A stretch of 43,855 nucleotides of DNA from Leeuwenhoekiella parthenopeia (GTDB taxonomy: Bacteria; Bacteroidota; Bacteroidia; Flavobacteriales; Flavobacteriaceae): the NCBI RefSeq assembly GCF_020782115.1, contig NZ_JAJGMW010000033.1:1-43855 (forward strand). Direction: 5' to 3'. This document shows positions 978-38,967 of this stretch, in pieces; position 1 is the first letter of the stretch, and each line of letters starts with the position of its first letter. The notes under the pieces are model-generated. The model had not been told where the DNA came from. It saw only the letters and a program-made list of their open reading frames with translations, and searched no databases. The translations under genes and the position numbers were made by a program.

Positions 978-3497
978 CTACATCGCTCCGGCAAAGAAAA
1001 TGGCGTTCATAAATAACTTGCTGGTACCGTACCAGAACGCTCTAAAGTTGGTGTTGTCTGTAAACACAAGCACATCACCTCTGCCCAGGCTTTGATGTAC
1101 AAAGGGGCGAGTACTTTTTAAGGCTTCAAGGTTGATATCGCTAATGTAACCGCTGGCCAAGGGTTCTTCGGTATATAAAACGGGATTTTTATAACTGGTT
1201 TCATCGGCTTCGATAAACAGGGTAGTATCTCTAAAAAGATTTATTTCACCCCGGTCATAACCAAACGCAATAGGATGGGAGCGGTCCAGTTTGGCTTTAA
1301 AAATGGCACCACCTATAACCTGTGCGCCGTTAAAATCACTGCGTTGCTCAAAGCTGATGTTGGTCGCAGGATTTTCGGTTTCTACTTCTGTAAAATCGAC
1401 TAGTCCCTGACGTTTCATCCATTTTGCGGCATTTTTAAAACCGATAAGCGTACCTCCTTCACGAACCCAGCTTTTCAGTTTTTCGGCATCTTCGTCTGTA
1501 AGAGCGCTACCCCAGCTTGAGGGCATAATGATTGTTGTATACCGGTTAAGATCTGACCGGCTGAAATTGCGGGTGTCTAACTTGGTGATCGAAATGTCAA
1601 AACGCGTATCGAGCAAATGCCAGATCTCGCCGGCATCGTACAAACTGATGCCTTCACCCACTAAAAGCGCGATGTGTTGCTTTTCTAAGGATTCAAACTG
1701 CCGGCTTCCCAAATCAATACCCTGTGTAGATCCGGTTGAGACGGCATCCATTTTTACGTGTGCGTTTTTGGCCACTCCATCTAAGAAACTTTGCAATGCT
1801 TCGGCATTCAGCTTTTGATTCTGCACGGGGATCATTAAAGTCCCGTAATCATAGGTTTTTCCATTAAGCGTAAAGGGCTGCATGGCCATTTTAACCCGAA
1901 TATCTTTATTGAGTATGGCGTTTAAAGCTTTTGGGGCGTAATAATCTCCCCACGGGATTAAATAGGCATAATTGCTTTGCCGCAGGGTAAGCGGTTGAGG
2001 CAATGTGATGCTATCCAGTTTTTCGCCGAGAAGACCGGCATGAGCAGTGTCACTAAAATCGAGGTTAAATGCCAGAGGAAAACTCCACGCCGAAATATCG
2101 TAAAATAAACTGTCCTGAAACGTGGTACGGGTTTCAAACATGGCTTTTAGCAAGCGGCTGTGCTTTTGCGTTTTGGGTACTAAATAGCTGCTGTTTGTAC
2201 CAAATTTTTTTCCGTCAGCTTCATATTCCCGTGCCGGTTTATATACTTCGATATGGTGTCTTTTGAGCAATTTGGCCAAATGCGCGGCACGTGCAGGATC
2301 GTTTGTACTGCCAAAGATATAGGCATCCTTACCGCGCTCAGCTCTTGAATTGGCGTAAAAATCACGCTGGTAATTGAGCAGTTTGGTTCGCATAGCCTTT
2401 GCTGCCTCAAGTGTAGATAAAAAGGCGGTAAACTGATTGCGAATGGTAAATGGAAAGCTCAGCAGTCCGTTTTCAGTTTCCTGAAGGTGGCCCCGTGAAC
2501 TGGCCTGTTCAAAGAGAATACCTATGCTTCCGTTAATGTCGGGGAAGGTAGATCCTTTTCCGTAGTAAAAATCATCATAATCTTCTTCGGTATAATACAG
2601 CGAACCAATTTTGTCAAAAGCTTTTGCGTGATAGGTTCCTATTTCTGCGGTTAACTCCTGATTAAGGGCAGGAGTGAGGGGATGTGTACGACTTGGGATT
2701 CCGGGTTGGAAGAAAAAAGACGAACTGCTGCCCATCTCGTGATGATCGGTCAAAATGTTGGGATGCCACTGGTGAAAGGTTTCTATACGCGCCTGCGATT
2801 CAGGTAATTCTGCCGGTAACCAGTCGCGGTTCAGGTCAAACCAATAGTGATTGGTACGGCCGCCGGGCCAGATCTCGTCATACTCTCGGTCCTGAGGATC
2901 GGCAGTTATGGTTTGGTTTTTATTGGTATTGGCCCAGTAGGAGAAGCGCTGTAAACCATCGGGATTAAACGACGGGTCAAAAAGAATAACCACATCATTA
3001 AGCAGGGATTCAATTTCGGGACCTTCGGCTGCTGCAAGGTAATAGGCTGCCAGCAGACCGGCATTAGAACCACTGGCTTCATTGCCGTGAATACTCATGC
3101 CCTGGTATACCACAACCGGCATAGTTGAAGTGTCTAAATTGGCGCCGCCTTCTTCGGTTAATGCTGCGTGACGCTCGCGTATTTCGTCTAAATTTTGCTG
3201 ATTTTGGGGCGAAGTGATGGTAAGCAACAAGATAGGGCGACCTTCAAAAGTACTGCCACGACGCTCAATACGTATACGCGGTGAGGCTTCAGCCAGTCGC
3301 TGCATGTAGCCGATGAGCTGGTCATGGCTTACGTGCCATTCCCCGGGCATATAACCCAAAAGGTCCTGCGGTTTTGGTATTTCGGGATTGTAGGTAACCT
3401 GATCAGGCAGGTAATAATCGAGCGAAAGTTTTGATGTGGTGTTTTGTGCAGAAAGGGTAAATCCAATACAGAGAAAAATAACGAAAAGGTGTTTCAT
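978..3497 (-). CDS. M14-family zinc carboxypeptidase-like secreted protein
   Basis: The product is 839 residues with a Sec signal peptide (about 1-17, ending LSAQ). The M14 peptidase domain (about 55-370) shows the zinc ligands H137 and E140 in SIHGNEASGSN and a later His in DHHEMG (252/253). It also has the NPDG substrate-side motif (178-181) and a likely catalytic Glu in GILFEQ (330). The C-terminal half contains a class I glutamine amidotransferase-like fold (TTIIMPSSWGSAL, then WVREGGTLIGF), as in other large Bacteroidota M14 proteins. It probably trims peptides or peptidoglycan in the periplasm or outside the cell. It appears to be a single-gene unit. The family call is strong; the substrate is unknown. 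Confidence 0.9.
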   Translation of the reverse strand: MKHLFVIFLCIGFTLSAQNTTSKLSLDYYLPDQVTYNPEIPKPQDLLGYMPGEWHVSHDQLIGYMQRLAEASPRIRIERRGSTFEGRPILLLTITSPQNQQNLDEIRERHAALTEEGGANLDTSTMPVVVYQGMSIHGNEASGSNAGLLAAYYLAAAEGPEIESLLNDVVILFDPSFNPDGLQRFSYWANTNKNQTITADPQDREYDEIWPGGRTNHYWFDLNRDWLPAELPESQARIETFHQWHPNILTDHHEMGSSSSFFFQPGIPSRTHPLTPALNQELTAEIGTYHAKAFDKIGSLYYTEEDYDDFYYGKGSTFPDINGSIGILFEQASSRGHLQETENGLLSFPFTIRNQFTAFLSTLEAAKAMRTKLLNYQRDFYANSRAERGKDAYIFGSTNDPARAAHLAKLLKRHHIEVYKPAREYEADGKKFGTNSSYLVPKTQKHSRLLKAMFETRTTFQDSLFYDISAWSFPLAFNLDFSDTAHAGLLGEKLDSITLPQPLTLRQSNYAYLIPWGDYYAPKALNAILNKDIRVKMAMQPFTLNGKTYDYGTLMIPVQNQKLNAEALQSFLDGVAKNAHVKMDAVSTGSTQGIDLGSRQFESLEKQHIALLVGEGISLYDAGEIWHLLDTRFDISITKLDTRNFSRSDLNRYTTIIMPSSWGSALTDEDAEKLKSWVREGGTLIGFKNAAKWMKRQGLVDFTEVETENPATNISFEQRSDFNGAQVIGGAIFKAKLDRSHPIAFGYDRGEINLFRDTTLFIEADETSYKNPVLYTEEPLASGYISDINLEALKSTRPFVHQSLGRGDVLVFTDNTNFRAFWYGTSKLFMNAIFFAGAM

Positions 3498-3672
3498 AAT
3501 AGGGAACTTGCAGCTTGTATGCTTTTGATTAAATGCTTCGATTTTAAAGATATTGATTTATGTGCAGATACCCTACCCACAGCATTACCCGCTGATGCTC
3601 TTTTATTAAAACTGAATTTTGAGCATAAAAAAAGCCGAAGTAGTTGCGGCTTTAATAACTGGACGTAATTTT
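3498..3672. terminator. Terminator of the DUF3276 gene (hairpin 3631-3653)
   Basis: AAAGCCG (3631-3637) pairs with CGGCTTT (3647-3653). Read on the minus strand the hairpin is followed by a T-run (complement of 3624-3633). It lies 20 bases after the stop of the gene at 3673. The remainder, to 3497, should contain the promoter of neither neighbour except the M14 gene, and no clear -33/-7 pair was seen. Confidence 0.8.
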
Positions 3673-4044
3673 TTAAATATCTTCAAAGCTTACATCGGTG
3701 AAAGCTTTGGCAGGTTTTTCAGCAACCAGCTCAGCATCGTCATCTTTGGTATAATCACTCTGGTGACGCTCGCTAATGACCTCTTCTCCTTTTTCATCAA
3801 GAATATAACCGGTCATTTCGTTCAGGATTTCAGAAAACCCTTCAAAATCTTCTTTATACAGGTAGATTTTGTGTTTTTTGTAATGAAAGGATCCATCATC
3901 ATTGGTAAACTTCTTGCTTTCGGTTATAGTTAGGTAATAATCTCCTGCACGGGTAGAACGTACGTCAAAAAAATAGGTGCGGCGCCCTGCTCTTAACACT
4001 TTAGAGAATATCTCGTCATTCCCCCTCATTTCAGTATTGCTCAT
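3673..4044 (-). CDS. DUF3276 / PUR-family nucleic-acid-binding protein
   Basis: The product is 123 residues matching the small Bacteroidota PUR-repeat protein (DUF3276). The core GRRTYFFDVRSTRAGDYYLTI is followed by a second strand-rich block, KKHKIYLYKEDFEGF. PUR repeats fold as a whirly-like sheet that binds single-stranded DNA or RNA; related Borrelia proteins regulate transcription. The tail (about 90-123) is acidic and likely disordered. It is followed by its own terminator. It sits downstream of, and on the same strand as, the ABC transporter, with a 67-base gap, an order I recall from other Flavobacteriaceae. Confidence 0.9.
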   Translation of the reverse strand: MSNTEMRGNDEIFSKVLRAGRRTYFFDVRSTRAGDYYLTITESKKFTNDDGSFHYKKHKIYLYKEDFEGFSEILNEMTGYILDEKGEEVISERHQSDYTKDDDAELVAEKPAKAFTDVSFEDI

Positions 4045-4111
4045 ATTCTTGGTTTAATTAATATGCATTACGCTGTCAAAAATGGAAAAAAATTAAATGG
4101 TGTACAAAAAA

Positions 4112-5869
4112 TTATTCCATTTCTTTTTCCTCCAGCTGCTTGCGATACAGCTCCTGATAGTAACCTTCCTGATTCACCAGCTCCTCGTGTGTACCACGCT
4201 GAATGATCTCTCCATCTTCAAGGATAATTATCCTGTCTGCGTTTTTAGCCGAAGAAATACGGTGGCTTACCAGTACGGTGGTTTTAGTTGCCGCTATGCG
4301 TTTAATATTCTCCAGAATTTCTTCTTCAGTCTCCGTATCTACGGCTGAAAGACTATCGTCAAAGAGCAGGATCTGCGGATCTTTAATAATCGCCCTTGCG
4401 ATAGATACCCGTTGTTTTTGGCCACCGCTTAACGTGATGCCGCGTTCACCCAGGACCGTATCATAGCCCTTAGAAAAGTCAATGATATTGTCGTGTACCG
4501 AAGCGTTTTTGGCAGCCTGAGTCACCTCTGCATCGGTCGCGTCTTTCTTACCAAATTTGATGTTTTCCTTGATGCTGTCGCTAAAAAGAAAGGCTTCCTG
4601 AGGTACATAACCAATGCTGCTTCTCAGGTCTTTCAGGTTAAGATCGGCTATGGGGGTTTCATCAATGAGTATAGTGCCGCTTGTAGTGTCGTATAAACGG
4701 CCTATAAGTTCTAAAATGGTAGATTTTCCGGAACCGGTTTTACCTATAATCGCAAGAGTTTCTCCTTTGTTAACCTCAAATGATATGTCTTTAAGAGCTG
4801 TAATGTTTGTGTCTTCGTAGGTAAAACTCACGTTCTTAAATGTAATCTTTCCGGTTACGGGAGTGTGAGCCTGGGTATGGTTCTTAATATCGGGTACCTC
4901 ATTTAAAAACTCGTTGATCCGTTTTTGGGAAGCTTCGGCCTGCTGTACCAGAGAGGTAATCCAACCTACAGAAGCAACCGGCCAGGTGAGCATATTTACA
5001 TAGATCAAAAATTCGACAATCACGCCCAGATCGGGAATGCTGCCGTCAATGTATTTTTTTCCGCCTATATAAATCACGAGCAGGTTACTCACGCCTATCA
5101 AAGCAATCATAAGCGGAAAGAAAAAGGCCTGCACTTTTGCCAAATCGAGGTTTTTATCCCTGCTGGTAATGCTGAGTTTTTCAAATCCCTCAGCGGTTTG
5201 TTTTTCAATCCCGTATGCCTTTATAACGCCAATCCCGCTAAACGATTCCTGAGTAAAGGTGCTCAGATGCGAGAGGTACTCCTGCACGATCGTGCTGCGT
5301 TTGTGTATAAGCTTGCTTAATTGATAAATCGCGACCGAGAGTACGGGCAGGGGGATAATGACATAAAGCGTAAGTTCGGGAGCGGTGTAAAACATATAGG
5401 GAACAACCGTCGCAAAAAGTATAAAAGTGGTTACCCCATACATAATGGCCGGTCCCAGATACATTCGTACTTTGCTTACGTCTTCGCTAATGCGGTTCAT
5501 AAGGTCGCCGGTGCGGTTTTTCTTGTAAAAATTGAGCGAAAGGTTTTGATACTGCTCGTAAACCTCGTTTTTAAGATCGGCTTCCATATAACGGGAAACT
5601 ACAATAAACATCTGCCGCATTAAGAAGGTGAAGAAGGCCGAAAGCAGCGCAGCTCCCAGAAGCAGAAGCAGGGTCATAAGGAGATCATGCCGTAATTCGC
5701 TAATCTCCCCGCCATCGCTCATATAATTCTCTACCAGGTTGATCATATCACCACTAAACTTAGGCGTAAGAATGGCAAATATGCGCGCAACCAGTACGAT
5801 GAAGAACCCCAAAATGAGCTTCCATTTGTACTTTTTAAAATATTTATTGAGATGCTGTAATTCCTTCAT
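4112..5869 (-). CDS. ABC exporter half-transporter (MdlA/BmrC-like)
   Basis: The product is 585 residues: a six-helix exporter transmembrane domain (about 15-320) fused to a nucleotide-binding domain (about 341-575). The Walker A is GKTGSGKST (376-384), the Q-loop Gln 424, the signature LSGGQ (480-484), the Walker B ILLFDD (D504, D505) and the H-loop His 536. The residue after the Walker B Asp is Asp, not the usual catalytic Glu. This is the pattern of the degenerate-site partner in heterodimeric exporters such as BmrC/BmrD, MdlA/MdlB or TM287/288. No second half-transporter is nearby. The substrate is probably lipid or drug but is not deducible. Confidence 0.92.
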   Translation of the reverse strand: MKELQHLNKYFKKYKWKLILGFFIVLVARIFAILTPKFSGDMINLVENYMSDGGEISELRHDLLMTLLLLLGAALLSAFFTFLMRQMFIVVSRYMEADLKNEVYEQYQNLSLNFYKKNRTGDLMNRISEDVSKVRMYLGPAIMYGVTTFILFATVVPYMFYTAPELTLYVIIPLPVLSVAIYQLSKLIHKRSTIVQEYLSHLSTFTQESFSGIGVIKAYGIEKQTAEGFEKLSITSRDKNLDLAKVQAFFFPLMIALIGVSNLLVIYIGGKKYIDGSIPDLGVIVEFLIYVNMLTWPVASVGWITSLVQQAEASQKRINEFLNEVPDIKNHTQAHTPVTGKITFKNVSFTYEDTNITALKDISFEVNKGETLAIIGKTGSGKSTILELIGRLYDTTSGTILIDETPIADLNLKDLRSSIGYVPQEAFLFSDSIKENIKFGKKDATDAEVTQAAKNASVHDNIIDFSKGYDTVLGERGITLSGGQKQRVSIARAIIKDPQILLFDDSLSAVDTETEEEILENIKRIAATKTTVLVSHRISSAKNADRIIILEDGEIIQRGTHEELVNQEGYYQELYRKQLEEKEME

Positions 5870-32756: not shown

Positions 32757-33524
32757 TTACGCGTCATTTTTTGTAATTATCTCCTGGGCTAAACTTAAGT
32801 AATTTGCAGCACCTTTGCTGCCCGCATCGTAGTTTATTATGCTTTCTCCATAACTGGGCGCCTCACTTAAACGCACGTTACGCTGTATTATGGTTTCAAA
32901 AACCATTTCGTCAAAATGCTTTTGAACCTCTTCAACTACCTGATTAGACAATCTCAGTCGGGAATCAAACATGGTAAGTAATAGTCCCTCTATATCAAGG
33001 CTGTTGTTGTGAATTTTCTGAACGCTTTTAATGGTGTTGAGCAATTTACCCAGACCCTCCAGCGCAAAATACTCACATTGTATAGGAATGATAACAGAAT
33101 CTGAGGCTGTTAGCGCATTAAGCGTTAAAAGACCCAGAGAAGGGGCACAGTCGATCAAGATATAATCGTATTGATCTTTTAAGTGGCGAATGGCTTTACG
33201 CAACATATACTCTCGCTGCTCCATTTCTACCAATTCGATTTCAATAGCAACCAGATCAATATGAGCCGGAATGAGATCCAGGTTAGGAGATTCGGTTTTT
33301 ATAATCGTTTCTTCAGCTGAGCTTGAGTGTTCGAGCAACTGGTATGTGCCCAACTCCACAGATTCTACGTCAATACCTAGGCCGGAAGTGGCATTCGCCT
33401 GCGGATCAGCATCAATTAGGAGCACTTTCTTTTCAAGAACACCCAGTGAGGCTGCCAGGTTTACGGAAGTGGTTGTTTTACCAACGCCCCCTTTTTGGTT
33501 TGCAATTGCAATTATTTTACCCAT
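32757..33524 (-). CDS. parA: Chromosome-partitioning ATPase ParA
   Basis: The product is about 255 residues from the ATG at 33524 (MGKIIAIANQKGGVGKTTT); a longer frame to 33557 adds 11 unlikely residues. The deviant Walker A KGGVGKTTT has the signature Lys (K11, K16). Walker A-prime DADPQANATSG and Walker B YILIDCAPSLG follow. ParA forms dimers on DNA and drives ParB-bound origins apart. This is chromosomal type: parB follows, and no plasmid genes are present. Confidence 0.96.
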   Translation of the reverse strand: MGKIIAIANQKGGVGKTTTSVNLAASLGVLEKKVLLIDADPQANATSGLGIDVESVELGTYQLLEHSSSAEETIIKTESPNLDLIPAHIDLVAIEIELVEMEQREYMLRKAIRHLKDQYDYILIDCAPSLGLLTLNALTASDSVIIPIQCEYFALEGLGKLLNTIKSVQKIHNNSLDIEGLLLTMFDSRLRLSNQVVEEVQKHFDEMVFETIIQRNVRLSEAPSYGESIINYDAGSKGAANYLSLAQEIITKNDA

Positions 33525-33804
33525 AGGTTTTGTGAGAATTATTAGGCGAAAATACAATATATAACCCGCATATAAAATGCTTTTTGTTAACAGTAGAGGT
33601 TGACAAACGACTTCTCGTTTTAAAGAATCGAAAGGATTTAATATTCACTGGTTTACAAACGCAAAGCATTGTTTTGAATAATAAGAGACGGCTTTTTAGC
33701 TTGTCACTCACGTCTGATATATAGGGGTTTAATCGATTTTATTTTTTTGATGTTTTTATAACCTGTACTTTCATTAGTGTTAATCATATCAAAAACTAAT
33801 TATT
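33525..33804. promoter_or_regulatory. Divergent 280-bp intergenic region between parA and the peptide gene
   Basis: It must hold promoters for parA (leftward) and for the peptide cluster (rightward). Upstream of the peptide a TTTTTTTG (about 33745-33752) precedes TGTACTTTCA by about 16 bases, a weak match only. Upstream of parA TATTTTCG (minus strand, near 33548-33555) is a weak -7. No parS (GTTCCACGTGGAAC-like) palindrome was found. Confidence 0.3.
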
Positions 33805-33978
33805 ATGAGCCAAACCAAACTAAAGCTGGAAGATTTCTCTTTTGAGAAGTTGGAGGAGCGTAAAGAGTTTACGTTCTACTACACACACGACTATGGATGT
33901 GCCAAAACACACAGTTCTTGTGATCCTTGCGCACCACCACCACCACCTCCTCCACCATGTGGCGGTACACCAACCTAG
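33805..33978 (+). CDS. Candidate RiPP precursor peptide, 57 residues, Cys- and Pro-rich core
   Basis: The frame is complete from ATG to TAG and codes for 57 residues. The first 22 (MSQTKLKLEDFSFEKLEERK and two more) look like a Bacteroidota RiPP leader: K-L-x-L-x-x-F-x-F-x-x-L. The last 35 form a distinct core. It has aromatic FYYTHDY (24-30), then Cys at 32, 39, 42 and 52, His at 28 and 36, and a run of eight prolines (44-51) before C52-G-G. No Trp occurs. There is no signal peptide and no membrane segment, so it needs a dedicated exporter or protease. The next two genes are a likely modifying enzyme and a PqqD-like/M50 protease. A hairpin between them would let it be made in excess. It matches no named family that I know; the precursor role is inferred from layout and context. 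Confidence 0.7.
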   Translation: MSQTKLKLEDFSFEKLEERKEFTFYYTHDYGCAKTHSSCDPCAPPPPPPPPCGGTPT

Positions 33979-33997
33979 AATATATACTGGTTGGGTG

Positions 33998-34055
33998 GCA
34001 CCGTAAGGTGCATTTAAAACTAAAAGTTCAAATTAAATTTTTAATTTGAACTTTT
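33998..34055 (+). terminator. Two hairpins after the peptide gene, the second a strong attenuator
   Basis: GCACC-GTAA-GGTGC (33998-34011) is a small stem. Then AAAAGTTCAAATTAAA (34022-34037) and TTTAATTTGAACTTTT (34040-34055) form a perfect 16-bp stem with a 2-base loop and a T-rich end, 14 bases before the next ATG (34069). Read-through could supply the enzymes while most transcripts stop after the peptide, a common arrangement for RiPP precursors. Confidence 0.75.
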
Positions 34056-34068
34056 TACATTTTTATAT

Positions 34069-34881
34069 ATGTCTCAAAAAACAATCTCTACCTATTTTTT
34101 TACTCGCCTTCTTGATTTCATAAGCCCTTTATGTGATATCAGGAACACTGAAACCTTCAGCGATTTTAAGAATGCTGTTGATTATTATACCTATTATACA
34201 TTTACCATAGATGCCCTAATAGATGGCGAGCTTGACTTTGAGACTTCTTCAAATCCTGCTGATTATAAACTGGTTAAAGCAAATCTTAGGAACACCCGCT
34301 CACTACAAATTCTAACGGGTCTTTTTGGATCGAGTTCTGAGTTTTGGTCTTTGATGGAAAAATACATGAGCACCTATTATTCCGGTTTGGTTGTTGAAAA
34401 ACAGCGTAGTGCAAATGCGTTTGTTCACGACCTAAACAGCTTTAAATCTTATGCTTTGGCCAAACACGCACCCGCATTTGTACCTTCCGGAGGCTTGATT
34501 TTGCTTTTTGATTCTCAGGTAACTCAGGAGCGGCTCGAGCAGTTGCTTACTCCTTTGTTTTACGGTATGCAGATGCTTGACGATATGGAAGATTTTAATC
34601 GCGATACCATTTCAGGACAATTGACCTATTGCATCAGCCGTACTCGAATTTACATTGAGGAAAACCAAATTGAAAACCCAAACAACCTGGAACGCTTTGA
34701 AGAGCGTGTATTTTATATGTCGGGTATTGCCCGGGAGTGCAACGACTTTGCAGAAGCTCAATTTAGACAGGCTCAGGAACTCGCCCGAGAACTTCAGCTA
34801 GACGAGTTAGTTTTATGGATTGATTCGATGTTTCAAATGCTGAAACACAACCAAAATATTATTGACGAGGTAAGTAACTAA
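34069..34881 (+). CDS. Class I isoprenoid-synthase-fold protein, ComQ-like candidate peptide prenyltransferase
   Basis: The product is 270 residues, all helical by sequence. A degenerate first Asp-rich region, DALIDGELD (48-56), and a good second one, YGMQMLDDMEDFNRD (D171, D172, D175), occur about 120 residues apart, as in trans-isoprenyl diphosphate synthases. A third acidic block, CNDFAEAQ (N215, D216, E219), is also seen. Fold-level similarity covers polyprenyl synthases, terpene synthases and ComQ, the Bacillus enzyme that prenylates the ComX pheromone peptide. The gene sits between a precursor-like peptide and a RiPP-type protease, which favours peptide prenylation over lipid synthesis. 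It could instead be a diverged terpene or polyprenyl synthase. Function is inferred. Confidence 0.6.
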   Translation: MSQKTISTYFFTRLLDFISPLCDIRNTETFSDFKNAVDYYTYYTFTIDALIDGELDFETSSNPADYKLVKANLRNTRSLQILTGLFGSSSEFWSLMEKYMSTYYSGLVVEKQRSANAFVHDLNSFKSYALAKHAPAFVPSGGLILLFDSQVTQERLEQLLTPLFYGMQMLDDMEDFNRDTISGQLTYCISRTRIYIEENQIENPNNLERFEERVFYMSGIARECNDFAEAQFRQAQELARELQLDELVLWIDSMFQMLKHNQNIIDEVSN

Positions 34882-34882
34882 T

Positions 34883-36055
34883 ATGTCGGTCTTAAAAGAA
34901 AGCTATTCCCTGTCGCATTACGAAAAGAACTCCTGGGTTTTAGAAAGCCGGGGAATGCATTACATTATTTCGGCTCCTGCAAAAGAACTTTTAGAACTAC
35001 TAAAGGAATCGGAAAGTCTTTCACAAGCTTGCGATGCTTTTAACAACAGATATGGTTACCAGTTTTCTGAAAGTCAATTTTGGGAATTTATCATTAACCG
35101 GCTCGGTTTTACGGGTCTTATAGCGGGTTTTGAACCTGAGGTAGAAAAAGAGCATAAGTTTATTAACCTGCAATTTGTCATATTTAAACCTGCTCTTGCA
35201 GCGCGGCTCGGGAGACCTTTACAGCCTTTATTTAACCAAAGCTTTTTTTATATCACCTTCAGTCTGCTGCTAATACTCGCGATATACAGTTTGTTTACAG
35301 TTTCGTTTCAAAGCCTGGGTTTTTCAGTATTTGCTTTAATGGCTTTGTATCTGGTAACCATAATCCTTCACGAACTGGGTCATATTGCTTCCTGTAGAAA
35401 ATTTACCGGGAAAAACGGTGAGATAGGGGGAGGCCTGTATTTGATTTTTCCGGTACTGTTTTCAAATATCACCGCCTTATGGCAGGCCGGTAAATCTGAG
35501 CGGGTAATTGGTAATCTGGCCGGAGTCTATATGCAGTTGTGGTGTTTGCTGTTTTTCTTTTTACTGCATCAATTTTATCCTGATGTTGTTTTATTTAATC
35601 AAATCGTTTTTATGCTGTCTTTGTACAGTTTGATACAGCTCATTCCATTTATTAGATCTGACGGGTACTGGCTTTTGTCTGATTTAAGCAATACGCCCAA
35701 TCTGCTGTCAAAAGCAAATGAATCCTTGAGAGACTTTTTAAAATCACCATTGGCATATTTTACAAAGGATAAGCGACCTAAGGCAACCTTTTTATTGCTG
35801 TATTCGGTGTTTAACAATGCGCTTATTCTTTATTTTATCACGCTCCAGCTTTTGCGTAACCGGCATGCCCTGCTTCATTTTCCGGAGTATTTGCTCGATG
35901 TGTTAAAGCATTTAATTCAGTTAGAACCGGTGGCTTTTGACTTTAGTTATTTCCCCGTAATTTTATTTTACATCGTAAGCTTTCAAATGCTCAAGCGCAT
36001 TTTTGATTCTGTTTTTAAAACGAAAAAGCAACAGCAGTCTGCTATTATCAAGTAA
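34883..36055 (+). CDS. PqqD-like domain fused to an M50 membrane metalloprotease
   Basis: The product is 390 residues. The first 80 fit a PqqD-like winged helix (RiPP recognition element type): VLESRGMHYIISAPAKELLELL, then FIINRLGFTGLI. The rest is a multi-helix M50 protease, with HELGH (163-167) and a second metal region RSDGYWLLSD (D260). GGLYLIFPVLFSNI and the DGYWLLSDL-x-N-x-PNLL layout match the peptide zinc metalloprotease group (YydH-like) found in RiPP clusters. It starts one base after the isoprenoid-fold gene stop and is followed by a terminator. It would bind the leader, cut it and perhaps release the product through the membrane. Confidence 0.78.
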   Translation: MSVLKESYSLSHYEKNSWVLESRGMHYIISAPAKELLELLKESESLSQACDAFNNRYGYQFSESQFWEFIINRLGFTGLIAGFEPEVEKEHKFINLQFVIFKPALAARLGRPLQPLFNQSFFYITFSLLLILAIYSLFTVSFQSLGFSVFALMALYLVTIILHELGHIASCRKFTGKNGEIGGGLYLIFPVLFSNITALWQAGKSERVIGNLAGVYMQLWCLLFFFLLHQFYPDVVLFNQIVFMLSLYSLIQLIPFIRSDGYWLLSDLSNTPNLLSKANESLRDFLKSPLAYFTKDKRPKATFLLLYSVFNNALILYFITLQLLRNRHALLHFPEYLLDVLKHLIQLEPVAFDFSYFPVILFYIVSFQMLKRIFDSVFKTKKQQQSAIIK

Positions 36056-36067
36056 AATTTTGGCATA

Positions 36068-36109
36068 AAAAGACTCCCTTAAATACCTTAGTATAAAAGG
36101 GAGTCTTTT
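36068..36109. terminator. Bidirectional terminator closing the peptide cluster
   Basis: AAAAGACTCCCTT (36068-36080) pairs perfectly with AAGGGAGTCTTTT (36097-36109). It lies 12 bases after the M50 stop and 17 bases before the end of the converging M16 gene (36127), so it separates the two units. Confidence 0.9.
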
Positions 36110-36126
36110 AAATGATAGCAACCGGT

Positions 36127-38967
36127 TTACTCGGTTTCTTCAGGCATTAATACACCCATAAAATAGTTATCATCCAGATATTTGTTTGCAACTTCCTGAA
36201 GTTCTTCTGCAGTAAGCGCCTGTACACGTTCTTCAAAACTCATCATCATGGCGATGTCTTTATCTTCCTCATCGCTATCCTGTAAGGCCGCAAGCCAGAA
36301 GCTGTTTTTCTGCATCTCGTCTTTACGTTCCTGAAGATAAGTTTCTTTAACTTTTGCAAGATCTTCTGCAGTAGGACCGTTTTCTTTAAGTTTTTCTACT
36401 TCAGCAAGTGCAGCTTCTGTAAGTTTTTCAACATTATCAGGTCCGCAGGGGAAACTGATGCTGAATGTTGCATTTCCGTAAGGGTATTTACGTATACCGC
36501 CGTTTGCACCTACACCATAAACACCGCCTATTTCTTCACGCAACTGCTCGATAAGCTTAATAGTTAGCACTTCGCCTAAAGCATCCAGTTCAAGAGCTTC
36601 GTCTGCATCGTAAGTAGTTTCTTCAACCCAAACAATCTGCACCTGGCTCTTAGGGTCTGTACCTTTGTTAACTACCACTTTTTGCTGCTCATCTTTCGGT
36701 CTGAAATCAGATACCTCAAAAGTTTCATTACTGTTTTTACCCGGTAGGCTACCGATGTACATTTTTGCAAACTCTTTAAGTTGAGCCTCATCAATATTGC
36801 CTACAAAATAGAAATTGAAATCCCCTGCGTCTGCAAAACGCTCCTGATATTTGGCATACGCCAAATCGTAATCTGCTTCATCGAGTTTTTCAGGAGTTGG
36901 GAAGCCATTGTATCTGGGATTGCCCTCGTTACGAATTTTTCCAATTTCGTTTTGATAGTAGAAATTAGGATTAGCCATCAGGTTACCTAAGAAGCTTTTT
37001 TGCTTGGTGATAAACGAGTTGTAGGCTTCCTCATCTTTATTTAGATCGGTAAAATACAGATAGACTTCCTGAAAAAGGGTTTCCAAATCCTTTGGCGCAG
37101 CCTGACCTCTGAAACCTTCGGTAGTAGAGGAGATAAAAGGAGATACCTGTACAATTTTCCCACTCATCAGTTTATTCATATCATTGAGTGAAAGACCGCC
37201 AATTCCGGCCTGGGTCAAACCACTATTAGCAAAAGCTGTTGCCAGATAATCCTCATCGGAATACAGACTGGTTCCGCCATAGCTATATGCGCTGAAAAGG
37301 ATTTCATCATTTTTAAAATCGGTGATTTTGTAAGTGATTTTAGCCCCATTGCTCAGGGTAAAGCTTTTAAAATCCAGATCAGCATTTACGTCTTCAGAAA
37401 CAATTTCTCCGGCTTCAGGCTTGGCTTCAAGGAGTTCGCTACGCACGGCCTCGTCTACGTAAGCAATTAATTCTGAATTTTCAACTTCTTCCAATAAAGC
37501 CAGAACTTCAGCTTCCTGTACAGGTTCTAAGCCCTCTTTTTCGGGTCCTGTAAGTATGATTACGCGGTTGTCAGGATGAATAAAATTCTGAATAAGACCA
37601 TTTACATCTTTAAGATCAATCGTTGGCAACACTTTTTGGTAGAAATCATATTCCCATTCGATACCGGGAATAGGCTCTTCCTCCAGAAAATTGTTTACAT
37701 ATTCGCCTACAATACGGCCGCTTTCAATCTTATCGCGGTCTTTATAGGTTTTTTCCATACGTGCCAAAAGTTCTTTTTTAGCACGCTCCAGTTCACCTTC
37801 CTGAAAGCCAAAACGCTTTACACGCTCATTTTCTACGAGAAGGGCCTTTAATCCGTCAAGCTGACCGGTTTCACTGGTGTTTGCCATAGATTGATAGGCG
37901 TTTTTGTCACGGGCATAAGTACCACCGTAGTAGCTGTATCCAAAGATAAAGGGCGGATTGGCTTCATTACGCAATTCATTAAGTCTGTTGTTTAACATGG
38001 TTGAAAACAGACTGCGAACTATTAAATCTTTATAATCCTGAGTTGTTTTTGTGGCCGGACTTTTAAAGGTGTCTTTGTACATCACCTGAACGCGGCTGAA
38101 AGGGGCTTCCGGGTCGGTAGCTACGGTAACAAACGTCTCTTCGTGGTTGGGAAGGTCAAATTCCTCACGTTTAGGAGCATTTTTCTTAGGTTCAATTTTA
38201 CCGAAATGATCCTTAATTTTTTGCTCCAGAGTGGCTACATCGAGATCTCCCACAGCGACTACCGCCATTAAATCGGGGCGGTACCAGTCATTGTAAAACT
38301 TCCGAATGGTTTCATAATCAAAGTTTTCTAAAACCTCTTTTTTACCAATGGGTAAACGCTCGGCATATTTTGAACCGTAAAGCATTTTAGGTAAATACTC
38401 CTGAAGCATACGCTTGTCAGGTCCTAAGCCCAGACGGTATTCTTCAAGTACCACGCCGCGTTCGCCGTCAATGGCTTCTTCAGTAAGGGTCGTGTTGTGC
38501 GCCCAATCTTCCAGAATTTGAAATCCTTTTTCCAACTTTTCAGGATCATCACTGGGGATGGGTAAGATGTATACCGTTTCGTCAAAACTGGTGTAGGCGT
38601 TAAGGTCAGCACCAAATTTAACACCGATGCTTTGCAGGTAATCTACCAGTTCATTTTTCTGAAAATTGGTTGTACCGTTAAAGTTCATATGCTCCATAAA
38701 ATGCGCCAGACCCTGCTGATTATCATTTTCGAGAATGGAACCTGCATTGACAACCAGACGTAGTTCTACTTTGTCTTCGGGCTTGCCGTTGTTGCGAATG
38801 TAATAGGTGAGGCCGTTATCGAGCTTTCCTATTTTTACATTGGGATCTGTTGGGATCTGACCTTGCGGAATGTTTGCCGAATTGGCTTTGCTCTCCACAT
38901 TTTGAGCTTGTACCGTTCCCAGAAGAAACAGACAGAGGCCAAAAATCCAAAAATTGTGCTTTTTCAT
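36127..38967 (-). CDS. M16-family zinc metalloprotease, two-domain (pitrilysin-like)
   Basis: The product is 946 residues with a Sec signal peptide (about 1-21, GTVQAQ). The inverted zinc motif HFMEH (89-93) and the third ligand region ERGVVLEEYR lie in the first active M16 domain. The second half is the paired inactive M16C-like half (FYFVGNIDEAQLKEFA). It probably degrades or trims peptides in the periplasm. Convergent with the peptide cluster but separated by a bidirectional terminator, so I do not count it as part of that system. Confidence 0.93.
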   Translation of the reverse strand: MKKHNFWIFGLCLFLLGTVQAQNVESKANSANIPQGQIPTDPNVKIGKLDNGLTYYIRNNGKPEDKVELRLVVNAGSILENDNQQGLAHFMEHMNFNGTTNFQKNELVDYLQSIGVKFGADLNAYTSFDETVYILPIPSDDPEKLEKGFQILEDWAHNTTLTEEAIDGERGVVLEEYRLGLGPDKRMLQEYLPKMLYGSKYAERLPIGKKEVLENFDYETIRKFYNDWYRPDLMAVVAVGDLDVATLEQKIKDHFGKIEPKKNAPKREEFDLPNHEETFVTVATDPEAPFSRVQVMYKDTFKSPATKTTQDYKDLIVRSLFSTMLNNRLNELRNEANPPFIFGYSYYGGTYARDKNAYQSMANTSETGQLDGLKALLVENERVKRFGFQEGELERAKKELLARMEKTYKDRDKIESGRIVGEYVNNFLEEEPIPGIEWEYDFYQKVLPTIDLKDVNGLIQNFIHPDNRVIILTGPEKEGLEPVQEAEVLALLEEVENSELIAYVDEAVRSELLEAKPEAGEIVSEDVNADLDFKSFTLSNGAKITYKITDFKNDEILFSAYSYGGTSLYSDEDYLATAFANSGLTQAGIGGLSLNDMNKLMSGKIVQVSPFISSTTEGFRGQAAPKDLETLFQEVYLYFTDLNKDEEAYNSFITKQKSFLGNLMANPNFYYQNEIGKIRNEGNPRYNGFPTPEKLDEADYDLAYAKYQERFADAGDFNFYFVGNIDEAQLKEFAKMYIGSLPGKNSNETFEVSDFRPKDEQQKVVVNKGTDPKSQVQIVWVEETTYDADEALELDALGEVLTIKLIEQLREEIGGVYGVGANGGIRKYPYGNATFSISFPCGPDNVEKLTEAALAEVEKLKENGPTAEDLAKVKETYLQERKDEMQKNSFWLAALQDSDEEDKDIAMMMSFEERVQALTAEELQEVANKYLDDNYFMGVLMPEETE

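Follow-up and report, generated by a model that had tools for sequence, protein, structure and literature searches.

Organisation of the operon

We analysed a 43,855-nucleotide stretch of DNA from Leeuwenhoekiella parthenopeia (NCBI RefSeq assembly GCF_020782115.1, contig NZ_JAJGMW010000033.1, positions 1 to 43,855 of the forward strand; contig G000:C27 in our numbering), hereafter called the window, which belongs to a genome of 4.42 Mb in 58 contigs. Between positions 33805 and 36055 of its forward strand lie genes for a small peptide, a protein with a predicted isoprenoid-synthase fold and an M50 metalloprotease, and these form a real operon for a ribosomally synthesised and post-translationally modified peptide (RiPP). 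The original prediction had placed a peptide gene, a hairpin, an isoprenoid-synthase-fold gene and an M50 gene on one strand ahead of a terminator, and all of these positions were confirmed, as follows:

33805–33978, + strand: gene for the RiPP precursor peptide (57 aa, P0001), with LEERKE in the leader (residues 16–21)
33877–33879, + strand: codon of Tyr25, the putative prenyl acceptor, at +4 past LxxRxE
33979–34068, + strand: intergenic hairpin and then a T-run, possibly an attenuator, between the peptide and enzyme genes
34069–34881, + strand: gene for a single-domain enzyme of 270 aa (P0002) with a predicted isoprenoid-synthase fold, similar to trans-isoprenyl diphosphate synthases (trans-IDS-like), with D48xxxD52, K132-H133, Q168 and D171-D172-x-x-D175
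34883–36055, + strand: gene for a protein of 390 aa (P0003) with a predicted PqqD-like RiPP recognition element (RRE) domain and an M50 intramembrane metalloprotease, with HELGH (163–167) and RSDGYW (258–263)
36056–36126, + strand: terminator-like hairpin 3' of the operon (-21.5 kcal/mol, z-score -4.2)

The hallmarks of a RiPP operon are all present, namely a conserved leader, a variable core, a predicted leader-binding domain and a modifying enzyme, which supports the three-part system first proposed, of precursor peptide, enzyme and leader-binding M50 protease. The enzyme and M50 genes are separated by a single base. The gap between the peptide and enzyme genes folds at -24.9 kcal/mol (z -5.3), which none of 200 shuffled sequences equalled. 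The same peptide-hairpin-enzyme-M50 layout occurs at seven Flavobacteriales loci, window included, and in all seven a hairpin occupies this gap (z -2.9 to -5.3), with a stem sequence that varies across genera. The weakest is that of locus L019, equalled by 1 of 200 shuffles and with only a short T-run.

A scan of positions 33500–36300 against Rfam returned no family for the hairpin, and its sole match, a snoRNA (E 0.55, 23.3 of 80 bits), was taken as chance. The scan of sigma-70-like promoters was uninformative (9 sites versus 7.4 expected). The terminator scan of the same tool found 4 sites versus 1.9 expected, neither of the two operon hairpins being among them, which we think is owing to the rules of this tool on G-C and loop size.

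The precursor peptide

The window peptide consists of a leader with LEERKE, followed by F-T-F-Y-Y, the first Tyr being residue 25, and by a core rich in Cys and Pro; it contains no Trp. The L, R and E of LxxRxE are invariant across 17 aligned precursors, which were hand-picked from neighbouring open reading frames (ORFs). Of 280 small ORFs on the same strand and up to 4 kb from the enzyme gene, 31 contain L[DEQ]xRxE, one of them by chance, whereas none of the remaining 626 small ORFs at these loci does, so that the motif belongs to the enzyme neighbourhood. The count covers 35 loci, six of which are non-family or truncated.

Compared with two congeners, the peptide gene has a dN/dS of 0.077 (L014, compared with one codon missing) and 0.050 (L015), the comparison with L016 being saturated at synonymous sites. 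Because of this purifying selection, the peptide frame is more than chance. Identity to the window is 91% for the peptide and 70% for the enzyme in L014, 93% and 69% in L015, and 74% and 63% in L016, and the frame is intact and conserved in these close relatives.

Among the 29 loci of the enzyme family (defined below), a scan for LxxRxE frames gave 35 rows and, after one chance hit had been set aside (LQYRIE at L015 3212–3307), 34 precursors in 27 loci. The scan yielded no precursor at L022 or at L030, the latter a short contig. At L043 (5319–6364), six tandem LxxRxE-Trp precursors stand ahead of one fused prenyltransferase-cyclase-like enzyme.

The enzyme

The AlphaFold (AF2) model of the 270-residue enzyme has a pLDDT of 92 and is helical throughout. 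Among the best 50 of 400 Foldseek matches (probability 1.00, TM-score to the query up to 0.76, best E 1.5e-3), 49 are titled prenyl diphosphate synthases, prenyltransferases or prenyltransferase domains; the exception is 9wyx (PbSS), whose title does not explain its function. Ord1 holds rank 41 among these 50. According to the part of a 2026 review available to us, Ord1 farnesylates free tryptophan, and the trans-IDS-like peptide class is likened to it (PMC13290415).

Curated families gave nothing for this enzyme (0 Pfam and 0 NCBIfam families), and phmmer against PDB sequences produced no sensible match. When the PDB was searched with a profile of 19 enzyme sequences, polyprenyl synthases matched in the region of the second aspartate motif (best E 5e-4), and the relative at L026 matches PF00348 at E 5.9e-5 (22.8 bits, below the cut-off of 27). 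Predicted structure, Foldseek and profile matches thus agree with the isoprenoid-synthase fold that had been read from the sequence, and the model places the enzyme in the isoprenoid synthase superfamily, class I fold. The host genome carries two PF00348 synthases of its own.

In 19 aligned enzymes, D48, D52, W93, K132, D171, D172, D175 and D179 are invariant and Q168 is kept in at least 90%. Both aspartate motifs, D48xxxD52 and DDMED (D171-D172-x-x-D175), are complete and are predicted to bind metal. Q168, just before the second motif, is present at 28 of the 29 loci, L029 having Cys instead.

The window enzyme is a single domain with no fused terpene-cyclase-like C domain, and a long C-terminal part is fused to the enzyme at 12 of the 29 loci (L025, L027–L030, L043–L046, L048, L063 and L064). 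In L028 and L029, the two searched against Pfam, this part contains the PF13243 squalene-hopene cyclase domain above cut-off. A D-x-D motif resembling that of class II terpene cyclases is invariant in all 12 fused parts. Hubrich et al. (2024) reportedly described ChrPC as a prenyltransferase-cyclase fusion for a ribosomal peptide. We infer that the 12 fused relatives, which combine a P-like domain with a squalene-cyclase-like C domain, are ChrPC-like.

A protein of 278–395 aa that looks secreted by eye recurs beside fused enzymes (L025 778–1956, L028 7533–8645, L045 8855–9691, L046 9372–10544 and L064 10423–11610); the L028 copy has no Pfam match. At L065 (6077–8884), two similar secreted-looking genes stand by a truncated enzyme domain of 142 aa, probably a decayed cluster.

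The M50 protease

The protease alignment clearly shows the M50 core (HELGH, RSDGYW). The only NCBIfam matches of the window protease are to NF041824 (daptide MpaP; E 1.7e-25, 90 of 300 bits) and NF058609 (YydH/LiaK; E 3.1e-16, 59.8 of 225 bits), both far below the curated cut-offs. Pfam PF02163 misses it, and 15 of 18 family members match that model at E up to 1. In the AF2 model (pLDDT 82), the N-terminal strands and helices resemble TbiB1-leader complexes, TigE, ThcOx, a heterocyclase and PqqD by Foldseek, and the membrane part resembles SpoIVFB. The PqqD-like domain that had been proposed for this protein is therefore upheld by its predicted structure, but is nearly invisible to Pfam, in which PqqD matches 1 of the 18 family members (E 0.17) and not the window protease. 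The predicted RRE-like domain and the M50 core together support a role as a leader-binding protease.

Distribution of the trio

A scan of genome contigs with a four-sequence enzyme profile found 11 loci (three in Leeuwenhoekiella, two in Chryseobacterium, one in Algibacter and five in Hymenobacter), and the M50 gene lies directly 3' of the enzyme gene in every one of them. Whole-genome searches gave an enzyme match in 7 of 249, 5 of 395, 10 of 296 and 13 of 397 genomes, in draws that overlap, include the window's own genome and contain some matches later dropped. Six non-family or truncated matches were removed, five without M50 or LxxRxE peptide (L031, L032, L049, L050 and L068) and one truncated to 142 aa (L065), leaving an enzyme family of 29 Bacteroidota loci, window included.

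This neighbourhood search bore out the proposed trio: an M50 gene is near the enzyme gene at 28 of the 29 loci (with one gene between them in L045 and a spacing of 0.86 kb in L047) and an LxxRxE peptide is found at 27. The locus without M50, L044, stops at a contig end, and elsewhere in the same genome an M50 gene lies close to a contig end (L120). The trio spans Flavobacteriaceae, Weeksellaceae, Hymenobacteraceae and other families, and a Hymenobacter plasmid also bears it. The distance matrices of enzyme and M50 protein are correlated (r 0.92, n 28), none of 2000 permutations being as high. Reading the neighbouring ORFs by eye, we saw no homologue in a carotenoid or quinone operon without a peptide gene. 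From the M50 side, a search of 249 genomes of the family gave 15 matches, 11 of them strong (E < 1e-40), and the enzyme stands beside 9 of these 11; we regarded the matches L094–L097 (E 4e-5 to 5e-4) as M50 proteases of a generic kind.

Within Leeuwenhoekiella the trio is an optional cassette. A congener lacking the cluster (G955, L101 5731–7683) has an empty site, at which parA adjoins a short-chain dehydrogenase/reductase (SDR) gene. At L016 these two genes flank the trio; in L014, L015 and the window they flank both the trio and an M16 peptidase gene. In the search for M16-peptidase synteny in congeners, only paralogues at 37–38% were found, and parA was therefore used as the synteny anchor. 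The G+C of the trio (0.39) is close to that of its flanks (0.41–0.42).

Two of the dropped loci, L031 (4707–7956) and L068 (5093–7416), contain a different DDxxD protein followed by membrane-protein-like genes (by eye), without M50 or LxxRxE peptide; the DDxxD gene of L068 lies near a C39-type ATP-binding cassette (ABC) transporter (by eye).

The residue past the leader

Trp stands 3 or 4 residues past LxxRxE in 23 of the 34 precursors and at 6 or 7 in two more (25 of 34), while eight have Tyr at +4 and no core Trp, namely those of seven loci forming the window clade and that of L047, on another branch; these counts cover related sequences and hence are not independent. Only the precursor of L029 has neither Trp nor Tyr near the leader, and the replacement of Gln168 by Cys in its enzyme accompanies this loss of the aromatic residue. 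The L029 cluster (1108–4929) is of the fused type, with radical S-adenosylmethionine (SAM) and cytochrome P450 genes (Pfam). In the window clade, F-T-F-Y is invariant in 7 of 7 peptides where relatives have Trp, and no core contains Trp; L018 has one in its leader.

A natural control is offered by three clusters (L092 6001–6144, L093 8282–8641 and L121 4637–4822) in which this leader and an RRE-M50 protein occur with no prenyltransferase: none of their four precursors has Trp or Tyr at +1 to +7. In place of the prenyltransferase they have radical SAM (L092, Pfam; L121, by eye) or an arginase-family protein (L093, PF00491, E 2.3e-42).

In a tree of 29 enzyme domains, built from a quick search and with long branches elsewhere, the seven Trp-less single-domain enzymes form one clade (Shimodaira-Hasegawa-like approximate likelihood ratio test, SH-aLRT, 100) on a stem of 2.26 changes per column. 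This clade sits next to Trp-type Hymenobacter enzymes (support 91), which are 19–22% identical to the window enzyme and have the same aspartate, Lys and Gln residues. Position 133 is His in 7 of 7 enzymes of the window clade and Ser (14), Thr (1) or Ala (1) among 16 Trp-type enzymes, a set that omits L022, L030, L066 and L067 (where Ser also follows position 132) as well as L029 and L047. Position 11 is Phe in the window clade versus Tyr in 16 of 16 Trp-type enzymes. Because L047, with Tyr at +4, has Ala133, His133 is not common to the second Trp-less lineage. A weak profile alignment (E 0.0016) puts K132-H133 on a K-T pair of the host polyprenyl synthases, the pair that borders the carbocation in farnesyl diphosphate synthase; His133 could serve as a base for the Tyr hydroxyl.

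Discussion

The explanation that we favour, and consider probable, is a RiPP operon, its three components being supported by sequence and structure prediction, whose enzyme would prenylate the peptide, which the M50 protein would then cleave. The enzyme would ionise an allylic prenyl diphosphate (C10–C20) supplied by the host's own synthases and move the prenyl group onto an aromatic residue just past the leader, most likely Tyr25. The RRE domain of the protease, perhaps together with the enzyme, would bind the leader; once prenylated, the peptide would be brought into the membrane and cut there, near the border of LxxRxE and core, by the M50 protein, which may also release the product outward. 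The hairpin would end most transcripts before they reach the enzyme gene, so that substrate is made in excess of enzyme. That the enzyme's chemistry is prenylation, as originally suggested, appears likely from the predicted fold, the aspartate motifs, Gln168 and the linked precursors.

As to the acceptor, we give Tyr25 about an even chance and regard a core Cys as possible at roughly half that, the remainder falling to another residue or none. The acceptor switch is put forward as a hypothesis with a named residue, His133. That a natural family of trans-IDS-like peptide prenyltransferases has switched from Trp to Tyr (or Cys), with the window clade as the first example, seems to us slightly less probable than its opposite.

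Several points weigh against prenylation of the peptide at Tyr25 and against the evidence assembled for it. At the level of structure, no Foldseek match of the enzyme or of the protease reaches E 0.001 or better, and those of the RRE are weak (E 0.1–2, probability 0.99 down to 0.5). The profile alignment of the enzyme to host polyprenyl synthases is weak as well (probability 16%), hhalign of the window clade alone against them fails (E 0.29), and position 132 is Lys at 27 of the 29 loci, with Arg in L066 and L067. At the level of linkage, all 34 precursors contain LxxRxE by construction of the scan, the enzyme-M50 association arises partly by selection because this very trio was used to find the loci, and the correlation of distances would also follow from shared descent. 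An M50-profile search of 296 genomes of the phylum gave 18 genomes with a match at E 1e-10 or better, of which only 8 were seen to have the enzyme; three more that were opened (G323, L121; G682, L122; G433, L123) show none, and the other seven belong to family f84. As no LxxRxE ORF was found at L122 or L123 among ATG-start ORFs not overlapping long ORFs, the leader is not paired with every M50 relative. With regard to the acceptor, only two lineages have Tyr at +4, the seven-locus clade counting once, and the match of L047 is weak on its own because its core is rich in Tyr and Cys. The window clade retains the Trp-associated Gln though its cores have no Trp, and core Cys are plausible nucleophiles too. 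Finally, in the part of the review seen, all characterised trans-IDS-like peptide prenyltransferases use Trp, PalQ being inactive with other nucleophilic residues (PMC13290415).

The alternative that survives best, although we think it unlikely, is that the enzyme is a cysteine S-prenyltransferase acting on core Cys (C32, C39, C42, C52), Tyr25 serving only for recognition. In the window clade no core has fewer than three Cys (three in L017–L019, four to five in Leeuwenhoekiella), odd counts leave one free if the others pair, L047 as the other Trp-less lineage is likewise Cys-rich, and eukaryotic farnesyltransferases would provide a precedent by analogy. However, the positions of Cys vary relative to the leader, whereas F-T-F-Y is fixed at the Trp site of relatives, and Cys is found in Trp-type cores too (L026, L043 and L045). 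We consider it improbable that the enzyme is non-catalytic in the window clade and acts as a scaffold or chaperone, the peptide being only cleaved by the M50 protein or modified by an unlinked enzyme: the long stem branch and the loss of the Trp acceptor could be read in this way, but the metal-binding Asp, K132 and Q168 are all retained in 7 of 7 enzymes.

Slightly less probable still is an enzyme that makes a free isoprenoid (prenyl diphosphate or terpene), with the peptide and protease as an independent neighbour. Both aspartate motifs are complete, as they are in prenyl diphosphate synthases and terpene synthases; nevertheless, enzyme, M50 and peptide are kept together across several bacterial families, the host already has its two PF00348 synthases, and an aromatic residue follows the leader in 33 of 34 precursors with the enzyme versus 0 of 4 without it. 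Lastly, a ComQ-type system proper, with a ComX-like quorum-sensing pheromone carrying a prenylated Trp, shares with the window the superfamily and an enzyme gene beside a peptide gene, but is very improbable given a peptide without Trp, a second aspartate motif that ComQ lacks and, as read by eye, no receptor kinase/regulator pair beside the trio.

Membership of ComQ/ComX was rejected on the first two of these grounds, and the specifically ComQ-like enzyme of the original prediction was not supported. Bacillus ComQ/ComX is alike in pairing an isoprenoid-synthase-superfamily enzyme with its peptide, and differs from the window, which has DxxxD and a full DDxxD; the available text of the PalQ paper gives ComQ the first aspartate motif and not the second (PMC10853753). 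Nor did the claim hold that nothing comparable is known: in the part of the review available, ComQ, PalQ and the P domain of ChrPC are grouped as trans-IDS-like peptide prenyltransferases. They have a Gln ahead of the second aspartate motif, to which the review assigns a probable role in holding the acceptor Trp, and in the ChrPC fusion an additional C domain cyclises the prenyl chain once it is attached (PMC13290415). PalQ of Paenibacillus alvei resembles the window enzyme in superfamily and in this Gln (PMC13290415, in part), and differs in prenylating a terminal Trp; the term M50 is absent from the text available for it (PMC10853753). ChrPC, too, has a trans-IDS-like P domain acting on a ribosomal peptide, whereas the window enzyme lacks the cyclase part, acts beside a peptide devoid of Trp, and has His133 at a position occupied by Ser or Thr in 15 of the 16 Trp-type relatives compared. 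The enzyme class is thus already published, and what sets the window apart is a single-domain enzyme, a core that has no Trp and, apparently, the association with an LxxRxE leader and an RRE-M50 protein.

The protease has its likeness in the daptide protease MpaP, described in the text available as an RRE-dependent intramembrane peptidase (PMC10036551), and in the YydH/LiaK epipeptide proteases, which share the RRE and M50 layout, with HELGH in the window protein; they differ in that, by eye, no daptide or epipeptide modifying enzymes lie beside the window trio. A literature search by title and opening abstract found no description of a trio of peptide, isoprenoid-fold enzyme and M50 protease. 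A survey of Leeuwenhoekiella with antiSMASH and BAGEL4 lists, in the portion available, terpene, type III polyketide synthase (T3PKS), non-ribosomal peptide synthetase (NRPS) and aryl polyene clusters and one NRPS/PKS-hybrid cluster, with BAGEL4 matches to zoocin A and sactipeptides in one species, and that portion mentions no cluster of the window's kind (PMC9859067).

The loci with radical SAM or arginase-family genes suggest that the LxxRxE leader and the RRE-M50 protein are a chassis common to clusters with different chemistries; if true, this would be a modular RiPP chassis with prenylation plugged in. Operons of this kind may escape standard genome mining; they would give compact access to lipidated ribosomal peptides in a phylum that has been little searched for such products. 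Should the acceptor truly have changed, setting the window clade beside the Trp-type enzymes of its Hymenobacter sisters would reveal how a prenyltransferase picks its amino acid.

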